Source: a virus
Length of the DNA stretch: 39,511 nt
Reading direction: 5' to 3' (one strand)
IMG/VR virus record: IMGVR_UViG_3300021381_000187
Location: 1 to 39,511 of that record
Part shown: positions 1,189-38,118 of the stretch, in pieces
Layout of the letters: each line of letters starts with the position of its first letter
Numbering within the stretch: the first letter of the stretch is position 1
Translations under genes and position numbers: made by a program
The notes under the pieces: model-generated
Databases searched by the model: none
What the model was told of the DNA's origin: nothing
Seen by the model: the letters and a program-made list of their open reading frames with translations, nothing else

Positions 1189-2742
1189 CTAAGAATTCAC
1201 GCTTCGGCTGATCTCGTGCCAATCAGGATTACTATAAACCAGTTTGAGCGTGTCATATTGACTAGCAACAAAGTCGGCAGCGCCCGCTAATCTTAGTGAT
1301 GTTCCTGATACGACCGTTGTATTCGCGTCCATAAAGACCAGCGTTACTTCTTGCCCTTCTGCGCCATTGGTTAGATTGTTTATATTGGTCGCCGCTGTGT
1401 TTGTGACCTCTAGCAAGTTAAACCCTGAGACATTTATAACTGATTCGGCGTCAGTGTTTGTTGCCTTCTTGCCGTTAATGCGGCCATCTACATCAAGATT
1501 AAAGCTTGATCCGTCTGTAGGGTGTACAAGTTTCATTAGCACACTGCTAGACGTCCCTAGTGCCTCAGTCTGAAACACTCTGTCAGCCGTGACCGAATTA
1601 ACTAGCCTCCCTGTGTAGCTGCGATTGTTAAGCTCTGATTGCGAATACTGAAGATTGCTATGTACCCACGCTTCAACCGACCCCACGCGCGCGCTAATTA
1701 TGTTGTTATTCGCGCCGCTATCCGTTGCGCCGCCGAATTGCATTGTGATCTGACAGCCTTCCGAATTAGCATCAAGAACCACGCCCCCGCCGTTGCTCTC
1801 GTCGTATATATTCAAGCAATGGCCGCGCCCTGAGATGTTCGCCGCGTTTCCTGTGTTGGACTGACAGACAATTAATCCGCCGTACATTTGCTGGCCTACG
1901 TTATTAGGCGTATCACTAACAATATGCAGGCCATCGCCGCCATTGCCGCGCAAGTCCATCATGCCCACTGTCGCGCCGTGGTGGTCTACTGTATTGTTGT
2001 TATTAACAAAGCCGTGGCGAACGTTGCTGACGCCAAAAATGAAGTTAAAATGGCTTAGATTGCCTTGATCGTACCTATGCCCATCATAAAACCCATCGGC
2101 ATATAAGCGCTGTGCAAATTTGCGCTGCGTTGTCGTGTAAACAATGCCCGCCTGAGTCGATGAAGCACCAATACCTGTAACGCGCAAGCCTTCAATGTGT
2201 CGTCCGCCAAAGTTGATGCCTATTACATCCTCTGTAAACGTGATCTGCGTGGCGTAATGCCCCGCGCCGAGCACCTCCAAATTGGTATAAGCGCCCCAAT
2301 CTAGACTGACTGAACTGGTATAGTTCGTACCCGCTGGAATCTTTAAGGGTAGGCCCGCCGCACTTGCTGCCGCCGCCGCTGCGTTAAGGGCTGCGCCTAT
2401 GTCCGACCCGTCATTGATCACGCCGTAATCATAGGCATTTATCTCTCCAGAATGATCATAAGGCACGCTGTAATCTTGAATAGTGTCAACCACCCCGCCA
2501 GCTGCATTCTTCACCACCAGCTTATAAGTAAGCATCGAATCAAAGTAGATATCTGTAGAGGGCTTTCCTCCGCTGTCTAATGTGAGGCTTGTCCCGCCAC
2601 TAGTGCCTGCTGAGTCCGTATAAAATGGCGTTGGCGTACTTGTGCCAGTGAGATAAAACTCAATTGTGCCGTTACCCATCAGCGTATTTGTCGCTGGATC
2701 GGTAAACTGAGGTTTGAACGGTTGACCTTTAACGTAAGCCAT
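1189..2742 (-). CDS. Tailspike / receptor-binding protein
   Basis: 517 aa. The first ~95 residues (GQPFKPQF, PYDHSGEINAYDYGVIND) look like the head/tail-binding domain of podoviral tailspikes. The region ~100-380 is rich in Gly/Asn with short alternating beta strands (IPAG, LEVLGAG, HIEGLRVTGIG), as in right-handed parallel beta-helix (pectate-lyase fold) spikes. A beta-rich C-terminus (GAEGQEVTLVFMDANTTV) resembles the end domain of such spikes. It likely binds and perhaps cleaves surface polysaccharide. It is last in the late operon, where P22 has gene 9. GGAG lies upstream of the ATG, but a terminator precedes the gene, so expression probably needs antitermination. Confidence 0.8.
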   Translation of the reverse strand: MAYVKGQPFKPQFTDPATNTLMGNGTIEFYLTGTSTPTPFYTDSAGTSGGTSLTLDSGGKPSTDIYFDSMLTYKLVVKNAAGGVVDTIQDYSVPYDHSGEINAYDYGVINDGSDIGAALNAAAAAASAAGLPLKIPAGTNYTSSVSLDWGAYTNLEVLGAGHYATQITFTEDVIGINFGGRHIEGLRVTGIGASSTQAGIVYTTTQRKFAQRLYADGFYDGHRYDQGNLSHFNFIFGVSNVRHGFVNNNNTVDHHGATVGMMDLRGNGGDGLHIVSDTPNNVGQQMYGGLIVCQSNTGNAANISGRGHCLNIYDESNGGGVVLDANSEGCQITMQFGGATDSGANNNIISARVGSVEAWVHSNLQYSQSELNNRSYTGRLVNSVTADRVFQTEALGTSSSVLMKLVHPTDGSSFNLDVDGRINGKKATNTDAESVINVSGFNLLEVTNTAATNINNLTNGAEGQEVTLVFMDANTTVVSGTSLRLAGAADFVASQYDTLKLVYSNPDWHEISRSVNS

Positions 2743-2760
2743 TTATTTTGCTCCAGACGT

Positions 2761-2782
2761 AAAAAGGCCGCATGTGCGACCT
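2761..2782 (-). terminator. Rho-independent terminator between last ejection gene and tailspike
   Basis: On the minus strand: 7-bp stem AGGTCGC/GCGGCCT (one U-G wobble), loop ACAT, then a U-run. It stops late transcription just before the tailspike start at 2742, so the spike should depend on read-through or late antitermination. Confidence 0.7.
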
Positions 2783-2783
2783 A

Positions 2784-2813
2784 TTGATATTTGTGTGAGA
2801 TTTGTGGTATTTA
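2784..2813 (+). promoter_or_regulatory. Sigma70-type promoter for the 38-aa membrane ORF
   Basis: -35 TTGATA (2784-2789), 18-bp spacer, -10 TATTTA (2808-2813); predicted start near 2820, about 22 nt before the ATG at 2842. It faces opposite to all late genes. Confidence 0.45.
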
Positions 2814-2841
2814 TTGGGAATTATTTTGAAGGCGAATAATT

Positions 2842-2958
2842 ATGTTTGAGTCTGTTGAGTTTTGGGAGTTGGTCGCCGCTATTGTGATTGGTGGGTTTAT
2901 TTTTCACGCCGTTAATATTGTTGGCGGCGCAATTCTGACAAAGTTATTCGGCGAGTAA
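2842..2958 (+). CDS. 38-aa single-span membrane protein, candidate superinfection-exclusion/moron gene
   Basis: Short plus-strand frame encoding 38 aa: an acidic N-terminus (MFESVEFWE), one hydrophobic segment at about residues 10-33 (LVAAIVIGGFIFHAVNIVGG), and a short KLFGE tail. GAAGG lies 9 nt upstream and a sigma70-like promoter lies 28-58 nt upstream. It is the only supported plus-strand gene in the whole late half and overlaps the 3' end of the last ejection gene by 15 bp. In P22 the same slot (between gene 16 and tailspike gene 9) holds sieA/mnt/arc/ant, with sieA a membrane exclusion protein. No homology is claimed; the role is inferred from position and topology. It could also be a chance frame. 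Confidence 0.5.
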   Translation: MFESVEFWELVAAIVIGGFIFHAVNIVGGAILTKLFGE

Positions 2959-4662
2959 GTCTTTTAACGCCTGAATTCTAGCCTCATCGCTTTTTGAAAA
3001 AACCTTGCTCATCTTCTTAGCGCCCCAGTTCAACAGGTCAGACTTACCCCCTGTTGCAGCACTTGCCGCCCCTCGCACAACTTCTGAGCCAATTTCACCT
3101 TGAAACGTATTCGGTTTAATTGCGGAAGGAAACATTTTGCGCAGCGCTGCCTCAGTAGAGACTATTTTTTTCAAATCATCGTCGAACCCGCCAGATAGAG
3201 GCGAACTGTAACGAGCGGCGACCTTATCCAACTGTTCAAATATTTCCTCTGTCGCCGTGCCTGTATTGTAATTACTTAATACTTTTCGAGACATTACGCC
3301 AAGTGCTTTATCAGCCTTATCGCCCGATAAATTTACTTTCTTCCCTGTCAAAGACTGAAGCTCATCAATTACGCCTCGCGTTTCTGCGTACATCGAATTA
3401 ACTTGGTCGTATTCTGGGAATTGTTTGTCTAGAATGTCGTCTAAATTGTGGCGAAGCCCTTTAACAATCCCTTCCATCTTTCCGCTCAAGCCTGCTTGTG
3501 ATTTTCCATAAGAGACCTGCTCATCAATAAACTTCTTGGCATTATGTACTCGATAAGCATTCTGCGAAGGGTCGGCAGTGTTATGTAGTCTAGACACTAC
3601 ACGTTTAATAATGTTTTGCGCATCAGTTAAGCCTTCAATCGTTGAGTCGGCAAAATCAAGCACGCCGTCATTGAATTGCACCCCCTCGCCAGCTAATCGC
3701 TCGATAAAATCATTCATTGCAGGCGACACGTCAACAGGTTTCCCTTTCAAAGAATTTGCGACTTTGTCGAGCCTGCTAGCTGCTTCCTTATTAGCCTTTT
3801 GAATAATTGATAGGCGATCTTGTATTGCTTGGCCCACAACTCTTTGAGGAGGGTTAAAATTACGAAGCTCAAGATTTCCTCTTCCTGTTTCAAGTACCTC
3901 AACCATTTCTTTTATTCGTGATTTTGTCGCTTTGTTTGATGAGGCGATCATCGGCACTAACCCCTCATCAAGACCAGCTTTAAGGGCTTTCTTTTGTGCT
4001 GCATCTTTAACTACTTTTCCAGCATCATCTAGCTTAAATCCTGCCGTTACAATGTCGCCTGAGTTCCTATAAAGAGGCAGTTTGGCCGCATCTTTTGCCT
4101 TACTTGGTAGTGCGTCACTTATCGCTATTGTTGCTGCCTTTGTTGCTGTCTTAATCGGCTCGGCAACCTTCGCCGTGCCAAGCCCTAGCGCCTCCTGAGC
4201 TATACCCTTTGCGCTAGCTAGATTTCTACCTACCGCTGGAGTCATGCCCGCACCTACAGTAAGCGCTTGTCCAAGTCCTCTTACTGCGTCACGCGCAACA
4301 CCCTCCTCCATGTACCCGCCATCGCTGCCGAGATTATCAGCAAGTGTTGGCATTCTTGAGTCACTGCCGACCAACTGTAGAACCGCGTTCACGTTATTAG
4401 GGCCAAGAAAGTCTATCATTTCAAAGACTGTTTTATTTGCAGATGCCGCCAGCTCAGAAAGCGGAGCCATGCCAGGAATCGCTAAAAATTGCTGCTCTAG
4501 CGTTTGCGGCTGCTCTACAGCGGGAGCTTCCTGCTGTGTCAATTCCTGCTGAGGCATCTCTACAGGCTCTTGTTGTGGCTCAACCACTTGCAGGCTTTCC
4601 GCTTTACGTCTTCTCGCCTTAGCTAGCGCAATAGCTTTTTGCTGCTCTAGTGTGTAGCTCAT
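2944..4662 (-). CDS. Ejection / DNA-transfer protein (gp16 position)
   Basis: 572 aa. A Gln/Glu/Pro-rich segment at ~20-60 (QQEPVEMPQQELTQQ) is followed by a long, mainly helical body. No enzymatic motif such as a transglycosylase site is recognised. Third of three consecutive large helical genes after the gp10-like gene, matching P22 order 7-20-16, whose products leave the virion to build a DNA channel across the envelope. The call rests on position, size and low-complexity helical character. Its start overlaps the previous gene's stop by 4 nt (ATGA), which implies translational coupling. Confidence 0.55.
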   Translation of the reverse strand: MSYTLEQQKAIALAKARRRKAESLQVVEPQQEPVEMPQQELTQQEAPAVEQPQTLEQQFLAIPGMAPLSELAASANKTVFEMIDFLGPNNVNAVLQLVGSDSRMPTLADNLGSDGGYMEEGVARDAVRGLGQALTVGAGMTPAVGRNLASAKGIAQEALGLGTAKVAEPIKTATKAATIAISDALPSKAKDAAKLPLYRNSGDIVTAGFKLDDAGKVVKDAAQKKALKAGLDEGLVPMIASSNKATKSRIKEMVEVLETGRGNLELRNFNPPQRVVGQAIQDRLSIIQKANKEAASRLDKVANSLKGKPVDVSPAMNDFIERLAGEGVQFNDGVLDFADSTIEGLTDAQNIIKRVVSRLHNTADPSQNAYRVHNAKKFIDEQVSYGKSQAGLSGKMEGIVKGLRHNLDDILDKQFPEYDQVNSMYAETRGVIDELQSLTGKKVNLSGDKADKALGVMSRKVLSNYNTGTATEEIFEQLDKVAARYSSPLSGGFDDDLKKIVSTEAALRKMFPSAIKPNTFQGEIGSEVVRGAASAATGGKSDLLNWGAKKMSKVFSKSDEARIQALKDLLAE

Positions 4663-12031: not shown

Positions 12032-14016
12032 ACCATCGCCCCTTTAATATTTACGCCTGAATCCAGTTCTAGCTTGGTGAGGTCTTTCGCTAGTGAGGCT
12101 CTAAAATGCTCATCCTCTTGCGCCATCTTCATGATAAACTGCCGCATAGCGTTGGATTCTTTACCTTGCACCTCTGCCATTTTCGCTTGTGCGCGGATAA
12201 GCTCGGCTTCTGCTAGTGGATTCTGCATGGCTTGCTGCTTAAGCTGTTCCACCATAATTTTTAATTGAATGACTTGTGCGTACAACAATTCTTGAGGCTG
12301 TTCAGGGTCGTTAAAGAACTGCCCTGCATCACTAAAGCCCATTGCTTTAACAGAGCGCTCTAGTACGTTAAACACCTTTTTGTGGTCGGTTAGGGGGGAT
12401 TGCATAGCGGCAAGCTGTTGGTGTATCTGTAGCAAACCTGAAAGATTGCCTAGCGCTGCTTCATCGTCTTTGTGAACCGTTACCGCTACTGGATGGTCAT
12501 AGCGCCACTTGCGAGGGTCAACGGTTAGCGTTTTGCCTAGTACCATGATTTCTTTTGCGTCATCTTGGTAATGCGAAGCCATCCACGCCAGCACCTCGCC
12601 AAGTCTTGCAAAGCCTGTCTCTGCCATTGTTCGCGCTACTAGCTCTATCTTAGCTTGGCCTGCTTCCTCCATACCTCTGAAGCGTGTGGCAGATTCTTTG
12701 TATAATTGATCAGAATCCAAGCCCTGATTCGCCATGTTATGGCCTGTAGACTCGCTTCTTAACGAGTCCACATACTGAACCACCTGCAAGGCTTTATCGC
12801 CAACATAGGGAGTCTGAAGCTGCGCCACGGCGGTGAGTGGGTCGCCCTTAGTTCTAACCACACCATTAGGCCGAACAGTTAGCAGATCGTCCATATTGGT
12901 GTTGTCATCATTGACCACTGTGCGACCATTGTTGACGCGATAAATATTATCGAGAGTCTGTCTAAACAGTACCGATTTAATGCGCTGTGATTGCTTGGCG
13001 AGCTCTGCACGGCTTCTGCCTATCGCCTTGTGAGGCATTGCAATAGCAGACATTCCCGCATACGGATGAATAGGAAACGATTCGTTTTCTAAGATCACCT
13101 CACCAGATTTTAGAATATGCCGCCTTTCTGGAATTCCATCTCCGTCAAAATCTACATATACGTATAGATCAGACAGCGCTACCTTTTCAGAGGCCCAATG
13201 ATTAATAGAGTCGGCTTCGCTATCTTGGCCGCGCCCTCTTGCAAGCGTTAAGCCTGAACCCTCTTCGCTTTCTTGGTTGTGCGTGGGTAGCTTTTTAATG
13301 GTTTCTTTGTCGAAGCCTTCCGCGATTAATTCGCCGCGCGTTTTAACTACTCGATCGCCAATCAACGGCGCATCATCAAAGCTGCGCGCACCACTGGAGA
13401 TTAAAAACTCTTCGGTAGGAATGTTTTGAATTACAAATTGCTTCTTAACGCGCTTAATTCTAAATTTGAGATAGAATGAGCCGTCTTCGTTTTCATTTTG
13501 ACCAATAACTTCTACCTTCTCGGCATCTTCAGAAAGGTCTGCAAATAACTGCTCTAGCTCTGCCTGATCAATGCCATCGTATTCAACCTCGCGCACTTCG
13601 TCTTTAACTTCATACGAAACCTTCACAACGCCAGCTTTCTGCATTTCTGCATCTTTCAGCCAATCATGAATGATTTTGTAAGAGCCTTTCTGGTTGCGAA
13701 TAATCCAGTTGACATACTTGGTCTTTTCTTCTGCCTCTTGAATATCTGCATCGCGCTCTGATTGGTGTTCGAACGTAATGACATCTTGAGCGCCCAGAAA
13801 TACCCTGGCCAGTGAAGGCATGTCAGATTCAACTAAATCCTGCACATCGCTAGACACTACCTGACTTTGGCCTTCTACCTCATCTCCAAACGGCTCAGAA
13901 TAGTAATAGTCTGTTAGATCCTGATTCTCTTTGATGAAATCGCCGTTATAAGACAGGGCATCGCGCTCTGCCTCTTTAACGATTGCTAATAGTTCGCCTT
14001 CAGTCATTTTTGGCAT
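12028..14016 (-). CDS. Portal protein
   Basis: 662 aa (P22 gp1 is 725). The segment GQSQVVSSDVQDLVESDMPSLAR is the hallmark of a large podoviral/SU10-type portal family. Further expected parts are the long acidic wing, LSDLYVYVDFDGDG, and the C-terminal helical crown/barrel region (LRSESTGHNMANQGLD, then Gln-rich helices). Twelve copies would form the DNA entry/exit channel. It is preceded by TerL and a small gene, the canonical order. Start at 14016 abuts the previous stop (TAAATG). Confidence 0.88.
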   Translation of the reverse strand: MPKMTEGELLAIVKEAERDALSYNGDFIKENQDLTDYYYSEPFGDEVEGQSQVVSSDVQDLVESDMPSLARVFLGAQDVITFEHQSERDADIQEAEEKTKYVNWIIRNQKGSYKIIHDWLKDAEMQKAGVVKVSYEVKDEVREVEYDGIDQAELEQLFADLSEDAEKVEVIGQNENEDGSFYLKFRIKRVKKQFVIQNIPTEEFLISSGARSFDDAPLIGDRVVKTRGELIAEGFDKETIKKLPTHNQESEEGSGLTLARGRGQDSEADSINHWASEKVALSDLYVYVDFDGDGIPERRHILKSGEVILENESFPIHPYAGMSAIAMPHKAIGRSRAELAKQSQRIKSVLFRQTLDNIYRVNNGRTVVNDDNTNMDDLLTVRPNGVVRTKGDPLTAVAQLQTPYVGDKALQVVQYVDSLRSESTGHNMANQGLDSDQLYKESATRFRGMEEAGQAKIELVARTMAETGFARLGEVLAWMASHYQDDAKEIMVLGKTLTVDPRKWRYDHPVAVTVHKDDEAALGNLSGLLQIHQQLAAMQSPLTDHKKVFNVLERSVKAMGFSDAGQFFNDPEQPQELLYAQVIQLKIMVEQLKQQAMQNPLAEAELIRAQAKMAEVQGKESNAMRQFIMKMAQEDEHFRASLAKDLTKLELDSGVNIKGAMV

Positions 14017-14157
14017 TTACTTAACCTTTTTGGCCAAACCTTGATTTTTCGGATTAACGGCTATCCCCGCTTTCTTATTAAGCGCGTGTACCTGTTCTTT
14101 TAATATCTTTACTTGGTCGCGTAAATCACGCACATCGTTAGCTAGTTTGATACTCAT
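14017..14157 (-). CDS. 46-aa coiled-coil protein between TerL and portal
   Basis: Short gene: MSIKLANDVRDLRDQ, a helical heptad region, then a basic tail (GLAKKVK). Its ATG overlaps the terminase stop (ATGA) and its stop touches the portal start, so it is embedded in a translationally coupled cluster. Function unknown; a packaging or assembly helper is plausible. Confidence 0.6.
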   Translation of the reverse strand: MSIKLANDVRDLRDQVKILKEQVHALNKKAGIAVNPKNQGLAKKVK

Positions 14158-31327: not shown

Positions 31328-31729
31328 ATGTCAAACAATGCCCCACTAACAAAGCATGAGCAGGAAATGGCCGACAGGCTTAATTCTGTTTGGGTGAGGA
31401 AAAAGCGCCTTTTGGGGCTGAGTCAAGAGCGCGCGGCTGAAATGTTTGGATGTACACAGGCCACAATCTCCCAATATGTAAACGGAAGAATCCCTCTTAA
31501 TACAAATGCAATCTTCAAGTTTTCCAAGATTCTTCAAATTGGCCCAGAGGAGATAAATCCAGATATAGGAAAGATTGTCCCATCTTCACCTATAGCTTTA
31601 GCAGGGCCGATAACAGCAAAGGACATGCTGCCATTACTAAGCCAAATGCCCGTTAAAGAAGTGATGAAATTCTTGGGCATGGCTGAGGCTATCATTGATC
31701 AGAAGCTAAAAGAGCAATCTGAAGAATAG
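31328..31729 (+). CDS. XRE-family prophage repressor without S24 domain
   Basis: 133 aa. N-terminal helix-turn-helix at ~25-60 (RKKRLLGLSQERAAEMFGC-TQATISQYVNGRIPL) typical of XRE/CI repressors. The C-terminal half (GPITAKDMLPLLSQMPV, then a helix) is short and shows no Ser-Lys S24/LexA autocleavage domain, so RecA-mediated self-cleavage is not expected. It lies divergent to cro across the operator region, the CI position. The expected operators are the four 15-bp sites at 31254-31946. Repressor identity is well supported; the induction mechanism is open. Confidence 0.8.
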   Translation: MSNNAPLTKHEQEMADRLNSVWVRKKRLLGLSQERAAEMFGCTQATISQYVNGRIPLNTNAIFKFSKILQIGPEEINPDIGKIVPSSPIALAGPITAKDMLPLLSQMPVKEVMKFLGMAEAIIDQKLKEQSEE

Positions 31730-36792: not shown

Positions 36793-37108
36793 CATAGTCG
36801 AGCTTATCGACCTTGTTTCTATTCCGAAGTTTTCTGAAGATACTGGCTGGCCTGACACAAAGATTAGAAGCAAGGTTAAAAAAGGTTGGACTGAGGGCAA
36901 GGAGTACTTTAGAACACCTCACGGCGATATATTAATAAGCAGAAAAGGATATGACGAATGGTCAAGGTCAAATATGCCGGAGTCACAGAACAAGGCGACT
37001 ATCTTAGAATTAGATTCACATTCAAGGGCAAACGATACGGGCCAATCATCCCGTGGAAGCACACGCCGGAAAACTACGCAAAGGCAAGTAAGTTATGTGC
37101 TGAAATAA
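36773..37108 (+). CDS. Excisionase-like protein overlapping int
   Basis: 111 aa. Residues ~12-62 (LVSIPKFSEDTGWPDTK ... GWTEGKEYFRTPHGDILI ... GYDEW) match the winged-helix excisionase (Xis) style. The remaining ~45 residues, after the integrase start, are polar and Ser/Arg-rich and read in a different frame from int. Xis steers integrase toward excision. Lambda also has overlapping xis/int, but this overlap is unusually long (151 nt). Confidence 0.7.
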   Translation: MTVHEINIVELIDLVSIPKFSEDTGWPDTKIRSKVKKGWTEGKEYFRTPHGDILISRKGYDEWSRSNMPESQNKATILELDSHSRANDTGQSSRGSTRRKTTQRQVSYVLK

Positions 37109-38118
37109 AAGACCTAATCAAAAAAGGCGTAATGACTGACAGATTATTGAATGAGTATTTTCCTGACTTAATCAAGCAAGGCCGAACAAATAGCCGCGCG
37201 CCTGTATTCTCGGAGGTTGCGCAAAAGTATTTAGATACGTGCGAAGTCTCAGCGAATACACGTACTCAGTATAAGAATGTATTGCAGCGTTATTGGATGC
37301 CTGAACTGGCAGCGAGGCCGATTAATGAGGTGCTGCCGTCAGAGCTTAAAACAATTCTAGCAGGCTTTGAGTGGGCATCAGGTAAGACGAGAAACAACGT
37401 TGTCTCAATCGTTCGTAGAGTGTTTGAGTTAGCCTATGACGATGAAATAATAGACTTCAATCCAGCGCTGAAGATCAAAGCGGCCAAGCATCAGAAGCTG
37501 CCGCCTGACCCTTTCAGCGAAGATGAAGCACGAAAGATCGTTGCAGATTTATACAAACATCATTCAGGGCGTGAAGCTGTTTATGCGGCCTACTTTGAGC
37601 TGGCGTTTTGGACGGGGATGAGGACGAGTGAATTATTAGCGCTTAAATGGACTGATATAGATTGGTTCTCAAAAGAGGCGTATGTCTGTAAAGCTCAATC
37701 GAAAGGCTTGCTAAACGACAAGACGAAGACCGCTAAGGTGCGCAGCGTCATGCTAACAGATGAGGCTTTACACGCGCTCGATATGATGAAGCCGCTAACT
37801 TATCTTAGCCAAGGTGAGATATTCAAATCACCACGTACTGGCGAATCATGGAAGACCGACAAAAGCCCTAGACAGCCTTTATATAAGTCACTAAGGCGAT
37901 TAGGCATCAGGCGCAGAAAGGCTTATGCAACGCGCCATACATACGCCACAATCATGCTAATGCGCGGAGTTAATCCAGCATTTGCCGCAGCACAATTAGG
38001 TCATAGCTTGCAGATGTTCTTGCAGGTTTATGCTAAGTGGATTCACGGAGACCAGAACAAATCTGAGTTCCAGAAGATTAAGCAAGGCAATCAACCGAAA
38101 CAAAGAAACATCAAATAA
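36958..38118 (+). CDS. int: Tyrosine integrase
   Basis: 386 aa site-specific recombinase. N-terminal arm-binding region (YLRIRFTFKGKRYGP), core-binding domain ~80-170, catalytic domain from ~185. Active-site residues: Arg222 (TGMRTSELL), a Lys near 257 (KTKTAK), Tyr323 in the usual H/K position of box II, Arg326 (ATRHTYAT), His349 (LGHS) and nucleophile Tyr358 (QVYAKW). It would insert the phage at the tRNA end found at 1062-1088. Preceded by the excisionase-like gene in an overlapping frame. Confidence 0.95.
   Translation: MVKVKYAGVTEQGDYLRIRFTFKGKRYGPIIPWKHTPENYAKASKLCAEIKDLIKKGVMTDRLLNEYFPDLIKQGRTNSRAPVFSEVAQKYLDTCEVSANTRTQYKNVLQRYWMPELAARPINEVLPSELKTILAGFEWASGKTRNNVVSIVRRVFELAYDDEIIDFNPALKIKAAKHQKLPPDPFSEDEARKIVADLYKHHSGREAVYAAYFELAFWTGMRTSELLALKWTDIDWFSKEAYVCKAQSKGLLNDKTKTAKVRSVMLTDEALHALDMMKPLTYLSQGEIFKSPRTGESWKTDKSPRQPLYKSLRRLGIRRRKAYATRHTYATIMLMRGVNPAFAAAQLGHSLQMFLQVYAKWIHGDQNKSEFQKIKQGNQPKQRNIK

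Follow-up and report, generated by a model that had tools for sequence, protein, structure and literature searches.

The 39,511-bp IMG/VR virus record analyzed here over its full length, referred to below as the window, carries between the genes of its last ejection protein and its tailspike a 38-aa open reading frame (ORF) on the opposite strand. We lean towards the view that this ORF is a real, independently transcribed moron residing in the sieA slot of a temperate podovirus, and that its product would be a one-helix, SieA-like exclusion micro-protein; we infer each of its transcription and translation, its exclusion activity, and its target. On the evidence described below, the best-supported reading is that it would work like the micro-ORFs found in the same slot of phages BTP1 and Sf6.

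Gene layout and control elements of the locus

The gene content of the window reads as that of a provirus. A rubrerythrin-like gene, probably belonging to the host, occupies the left edge (positions 1–642), and the phage behind it has genes for an integrase, an HTH repressor, and a Cro-like protein. The temperate context is provided by the HTH repressor-like gene (31328–31729; HTH_3, E = 3.6e-10), located on the plus strand that also carries the micro-ORF, and by the tyrosine integrase gene (36958–38118, plus strand; Phage_integrase, E = 3.2e-18). The late genes are found on the minus strand. The last ejection protein (2944–4662, minus strand, 572 aa) corresponds in position to P22 gp16, and its residues 197–572 are 38% identical to a protein that carries an ejection annotation in Pseudoalteromonas phage H6/1. 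The tailspike (1189–2742, minus strand) includes an N-terminal head-binding-like domain, and its relatives are annotated as tail spikes. The measured gap between these two genes is only 201 bp, as the initial annotation had stated, and besides the 38-aa frame it contains no ORF longer than 28 aa.

The 38-aa ORF (2842–2958, plus strand) starts with ATG and encodes the peptide MFESVEFWELVAAIVIGGFIFHAVNIVGGAILTKLFGE, with its last 15 bp overlapping the end of the convergent ejection gene. A Shine–Dalgarno-like (SD) sequence, GAAGG (2828–2832, plus strand), is separated from the ATG by a 9-nt spacer. The peptide comprises one hydrophobic span, with a 19-residue KD mean of 2.19, and a single-sequence AlphaFold2 model presents it as one helix of residues 2–37 (pLDDT 94), in agreement with the earlier proposal of a plus-strand frame with its own SD that encodes a single-span peptide. 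No match to this peptide was found in INPHARED, PHROGs, Pfam, or PADLOC, and a search for a plus-strand terminator 3′ of the ORF gave none. Taken alone, the ORF is within chance expectation, with 34% of dinucleotide shuffles of the 201-bp gap yielding an opposite-strand ORF of at least 30 aa with a hydrophobic span (p = 0.34), so that comparative evidence is needed.

An intrinsic terminator or attenuator of the late strand (2757–2782, minus strand) is located just before the SD of the tailspike and consists of a stem (2782–2765) followed by TTTTT. Its hairpin has a predicted energy of −12.4 kcal/mol (z = −2.6) and is kept at the corresponding place in two other loci, L006 and L053, as well as in unrelated phages; the minus-strand terminator that had been proposed in this gap does exist. 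The late-strand pattern of CAAAnnTCAA, GGTCGC-loop-GCGGCC, and TTTTT recurs at the ends of late genes in unrelated phages and represents a phage terminator. Sites with this pattern are located at 8435 in L059, 2223 in L060, 2934 in L062, 6395 in L064, 400 in L058, and 1000 in L065.

The plus-strand promoter postulated by the initial annotation fared less well. The candidate is a weak promoter-like element (2784–2813, plus strand) with TTGATA and TATTTA separated by 18 bp and TGn before the second hexamer, and it does not rise above chance, as a scan gave two sites in the kilobase against 1.9 expected, none of them at 2784. The TGTGnTA of this element is common to the window, L006, and L053. 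A TTGAnnTTTG block considered as a conserved −35 region was dropped because unrelated phages have it together with the terminator, to whose motif the TTGA of the −35 candidate belongs, although this recurrence is a caution only, since the search pattern itself demanded that block. A promoter-like site is also present on the minus strand (2941–2914), upstream of the terminator, in a region where promoter sites are at chance level.

Membrane ORFs in the ejection–tailspike slot

A profile search identified 47 loci with the ejection protein, and in most of them the tailspike starts no more than 41 bp from the ejection stop codon, often overlapping it, which makes the 201-bp gap of the window an insertion. 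Seen as a moron, the window element is thus inserted in comparison with its relatives, while its candidate promoter stays at chance level. In L007, with a 53% identical ejection protein, the gap is 17 bp long and includes no ORF. Among the full-length relatives, L006 is nearest (65%); its 178-bp gap includes the matching terminator and an opposite-strand membrane ORF, which from an internal ATG reads MSIFEMSLAVAIGVIVGKMAYDFLSGFLSSLFRK, with the SD GAGAGG 5 nt before this ATG and the register as in the window. Identity between the window and L006 amounts to 27/32 in the terminator block and 13/15 in the overlap, but to only 36/99 in the ORF body, and the similarity of the two peptides is not significant (shuffle p = 0.23). 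L053 shares with the window its terminator and a similar tailspike N terminus, and carries a third, different opposite-strand membrane ORF; its ejection protein differs, being 736 aa long and having no match to the ejection profile. L026 and L038 contain two further opposite-strand membrane ORFs. Searches for IMG/VR relatives through the tailspike, the 384-aa and 311-aa ejection proteins, and the portal returned few or none, and a genome scan with the ejection alignment gave no match.

In a count over all sources, an opposite-strand membrane ORF was present in 7/7 ejection–tailspike gaps of 120–300 bp, compared to 7/44 of the other same-strand gaps in the same sequences (Fisher p = 3e-5, or 1e-4 with the window and L006 merged as one). 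Such ORFs recur in the slot more often than expected by chance.

Annotated phages outside the P22 group provide further examples. Xanthomonas phage PBR31, which is temperate, and Rhodoferax phage P26218, reported to be lytic, have gaps of 254 and 155 bp, respectively, each with an unannotated opposite-strand membrane ORF, and their two peptides are related (score 46 versus a shuffle mean of 11.6). A 58.5% homologue of the P26218 ORF is found in the ejection–tailspike slot of MW202557. Between P26218 and MW202557, the ORFs outside the overlap have 12 differences in the first, 9 in the second, and 33 in the third codon position, a coding signature showing purifying selection on this pair. This LLxxxxKPF family resembles the window ORF in its slot, its strand, and its membrane character, whereas its sequence is unrelated to the window peptide, it is longer and has a basic C-terminal half, and one of its phages, P26218, is reported as lytic. 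The latter suggests that slot proteins may act in lytic growth too, or may do something else, and that their role may not be limited to lysogeny. Members of the family are either unannotated or annotated on the wrong strand. In the record of MW202557 (L100), a late-strand ORF is annotated at 3839–3973 (UOF78610.1), where it is the opposite strand that carries the conserved gene.

Related 92–94-aa membrane ORFs with two spans, convergent with the ejection gene, are present on the minus strand of L013 (6853–7131) and L016 (7107–7391). The 92–94-aa ORFs of L013, L016, and L018 were excluded from the slot count because no tailspike is next to them.

Comparison with P22 SieA and with the micro-ORFs of BTP1 and Sf6

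In P22, gene 16 on the plus strand is followed by the convergent sieA on the minus strand, with its own promoter, then by a late-strand terminator and gene 9. From this slot between genes 16 and 9, SieA, a protein of 164 aa with three transmembrane segments according to TMHMM, blocks DNA injection by superinfecting phages. The analogy with the sieA/immI slot of P22 drawn by the initial annotation stands as far as position and orientation are concerned; the window gap contains none of mnt, arc, ant, and sar. SieA (PHROG 7745) and the window ORF share the ejection–tailspike slot, the opposite strand, the convergent orientation, and the nature of a hydrophobic membrane protein. Membership of the window peptide in the SieA family is ruled out by the lack of a match to phrog_7745, a profile against which P22 SieA scores 9e-109, and by the number of spans, one in the window peptide as opposed to three, the difference from the several of P22 SieA being seen with the identical measure.

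The 'ant moron' site, with ten types in sixteen genomes, has been described as the sole place for morons within these morphogenetic clusters, and Sf6 was listed in 2008 as having no moron there (PMC2629481). The 'ant moron'/immI region of P22-like phages and the window locus share their insertion site in the late operon, although the latter has no mnt, arc, ant, or sar. Only 22/66 P22-like phages carry sieA, and in CUS-3 the matching convergent position is taken by hkcB, with an N-terminal membrane span.

In BTP1, the locus STnc6030 is on the strand opposite to the injection and tailspike genes, facing the 3′-terminal part of the former and the 5′-terminal part of the latter; its expression leads to total exclusion of BTP1, but not of P22, and it was called an antisense RNA, in part since no ORF longer than 60 aa was seen (PMC7067206). 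A 2025 review still presents it as such (PMC12197685). All four BTP1 escape SNPs are non-synonymous and cluster within 36 bp (D23580 404041–404078) in the 3′-terminal part of the injection gene. Prophage induction is undiminished by STnc6030, which led the authors to state that an induced prophage must escape it (PMC7067206). Both observations would be explained, with no more assumptions, by a protein that acts at the injection stage. BTP1 (L109, NC_042346) contains on the minus strand, opposite its late genes, an unannotated 23-aa ORF (14011–14082, MERDLLNFVFLIFGLVVGKLLFA) in a 155-bp gap, with a strong SD (GTGGAGGGTTTATG) and a 12-bp overlap with the injection gene. Since the transcript is reported to extend from the tailspike to the injection gene, this ORF would be inside STnc6030.

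Homologues of the 23-aa ORF occupy the corresponding place in MG40, whose peptide is identical to that of BTP1, and in BIS08P22, g341c, L, ST64T, ST104, HF4s, and Klebsiella phiKp_30. A 25-aa subtype is found in Sf6 (MQRDLLNIAFYIVGFCTFLVFAKLF), IME10, Gally, and E. coli prophages; in Sf6 (L122, AF547987) this membrane ORF is unannotated and faces the end of gene 13 from the other strand (13549–13623, minus strand of the record). None of these 23–25-aa micro-ORFs is annotated in the records viewed, and within the limited open literature no mention naming the BTP1-type 23-aa peptide was found. They are kept across phages of Salmonella, Klebsiella, and E. coli/Shigella. Outside the overlap, synonymous changes are in excess over random expectation in both the 23-aa group (p = 2.5e-7) and the 25-aa group (p = 0.016), these p-values being indicative because the sequences are related, and the comparison of these sequences indicates that the 23–25-aa ORFs of BTP1/L/Sf6-type phages are under purifying selection. 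The micro-ORF subtype matches the subtype of the gp16 C terminus one to one, as would be expected if the peptide and the ejection protein travel together, though physical linkage alone could explain it too. Some slots lack an intact ORF: the 191-bp gap of E. coli STEC711 contains none of this kind, and in UR21/11-869 the ORF is broken and the adjacent ejection gene carries a pseudo annotation.

The micro-ORFs of BTP1, MG40, L, and Sf6 resemble the window ORF in their slot, strand, single transmembrane span, and SD. They are shorter, and their convergent overlap is 6–12 bp compared to 15 bp in the window. Similarity between the window and BTP1 peptides reaches a shuffle p of 0.046, uncorrected, and the N-terminal motif MxRDLLN..F.I.G is absent from the window peptide. 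The suggestion of a small exclusion gene made by the initial annotation gains from the micro-ORF family of BTP1, Sf6, and L and from the exclusion phenotype of the BTP1 locus, while the window peptide itself is left with no provable homologue.

Proposed function and alternatives

By analogy, the prophage would produce the 38-aa peptide as a single helix in the inner membrane, where it would keep superinfecting phages with a similar ejection apparatus from delivering their DNA. Its target may be the incoming phage's counterpart of the ejection protein encoded at 2944–4662, with the contact probably being lateral and involving the membrane-embedded part of the incoming conduit in the gp16/gp20 position. 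The late-strand terminator could either separate the cassette from tailspike transcription or tune the latter. The layout of the window, shared with the gene 16–sieA–terminator–gene 9 order of P22 and with L006, supports such an exclusion micro-protein.

That the ORF is not a gene but a chance frame in a T/G-rich spacer, brought in by a module of terminator and tailspike, appears unlikely. The shuffles that produce comparable ORFs, the promoter that is not above chance, and an ORF body far less similar to L006 than its flanks would all fit a chance frame, but L006 retains a membrane ORF with an SD in the matching register, such ORFs are enriched in this slot, and the gap itself is an insertion absent from most relatives. 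We find it about equally unlikely that the moron has a membrane role other than exclusion, such as envelope change, lysis timing, or host takeover. Ejection–tailspike slots do hold diverse morons (PMC2629481), and the P26218/MW202557 family occurs in a phage reported as lytic, although both slot loci with a tested prophage phenotype, P22 sieA and BTP1 STnc6030, give exclusion.

The locus could instead act through a plus-strand antisense RNA, which would pair with ejection/tailspike mRNA of the incoming phage and leave the ORF incidental. This is the published model for STnc6030 of BTP1 (PMC7067206), and a transcript of the window ORF, with no plus-strand terminator found behind it, would run antisense into the ejection gene. 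This explanation is nevertheless rather improbable, as slot ORFs show protein-level selection where testable, their membrane character recurs among unrelated sequences, and the BTP1 escape SNPs all alter the injection protein while induction is uninhibited (PMC7067206). Far less probable still is a type I toxin–antitoxin pair, in which a small hydrophobic toxin would be countered by a minus-strand antisense RNA ending at the 2782–2765 terminator. The size and hydrophobicity of the peptide would suit a toxin of this kind, as would the position of the promoter-like site at 2941–2914, but promoter sites occur at their chance frequency, the matching terminator also separates late genes in phages that lack an ORF of this kind, and cells expressing the STnc6030 locus grew and served as lawns (PMC7067206).

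Beyond the exclusion micro-protein proposed for the window, we give an even chance to a broader interpretation, according to which overlooked exclusion micro-proteins of 23–53 aa, mostly with one transmembrane helix, would form a widespread class occupying the sieA slot in podoviruses throughout the Proteobacteria. BTP1 exclusion would then be due to MERDLLNFVFLIFGLVVGKLLFA and not to the STnc6030 RNA, and Sf6, L, ST64T, and MG40 would carry the system unannotated. If so, single-helix proteins of fewer than 40 residues would do the job of the 164-aa SieA, the class would have been missed by gene callers because of its length, and one case published as antisense-RNA exclusion would have to be re-tested. 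A single-base change in the start codon in MG40, L, Sf6, or BTP1 would separate the action of RNA from that of protein, and with escape mutants the contacts within the DNA-injection conduit in the membrane could be mapped.

The sequences closest to the rubrerythrin-like gene at the left edge of the window come from an uncultured Pseudomonadota MAG (80%) and from other uncultured gammaproteobacteria, and no homologue of the ejection protein was found in 54 genomes from the order, or in 369 from the class, to which the nearest rubrerythrin host belongs. A minus-strand segment at 1060–1095 resembles the T-arm and 3′ end of a tRNA gene (GGTTCAAATCCTGCCGTCCCGACCA); ARAGORN detects no intact tRNA, and the segment is probably the attachment site at the left end of the prophage.
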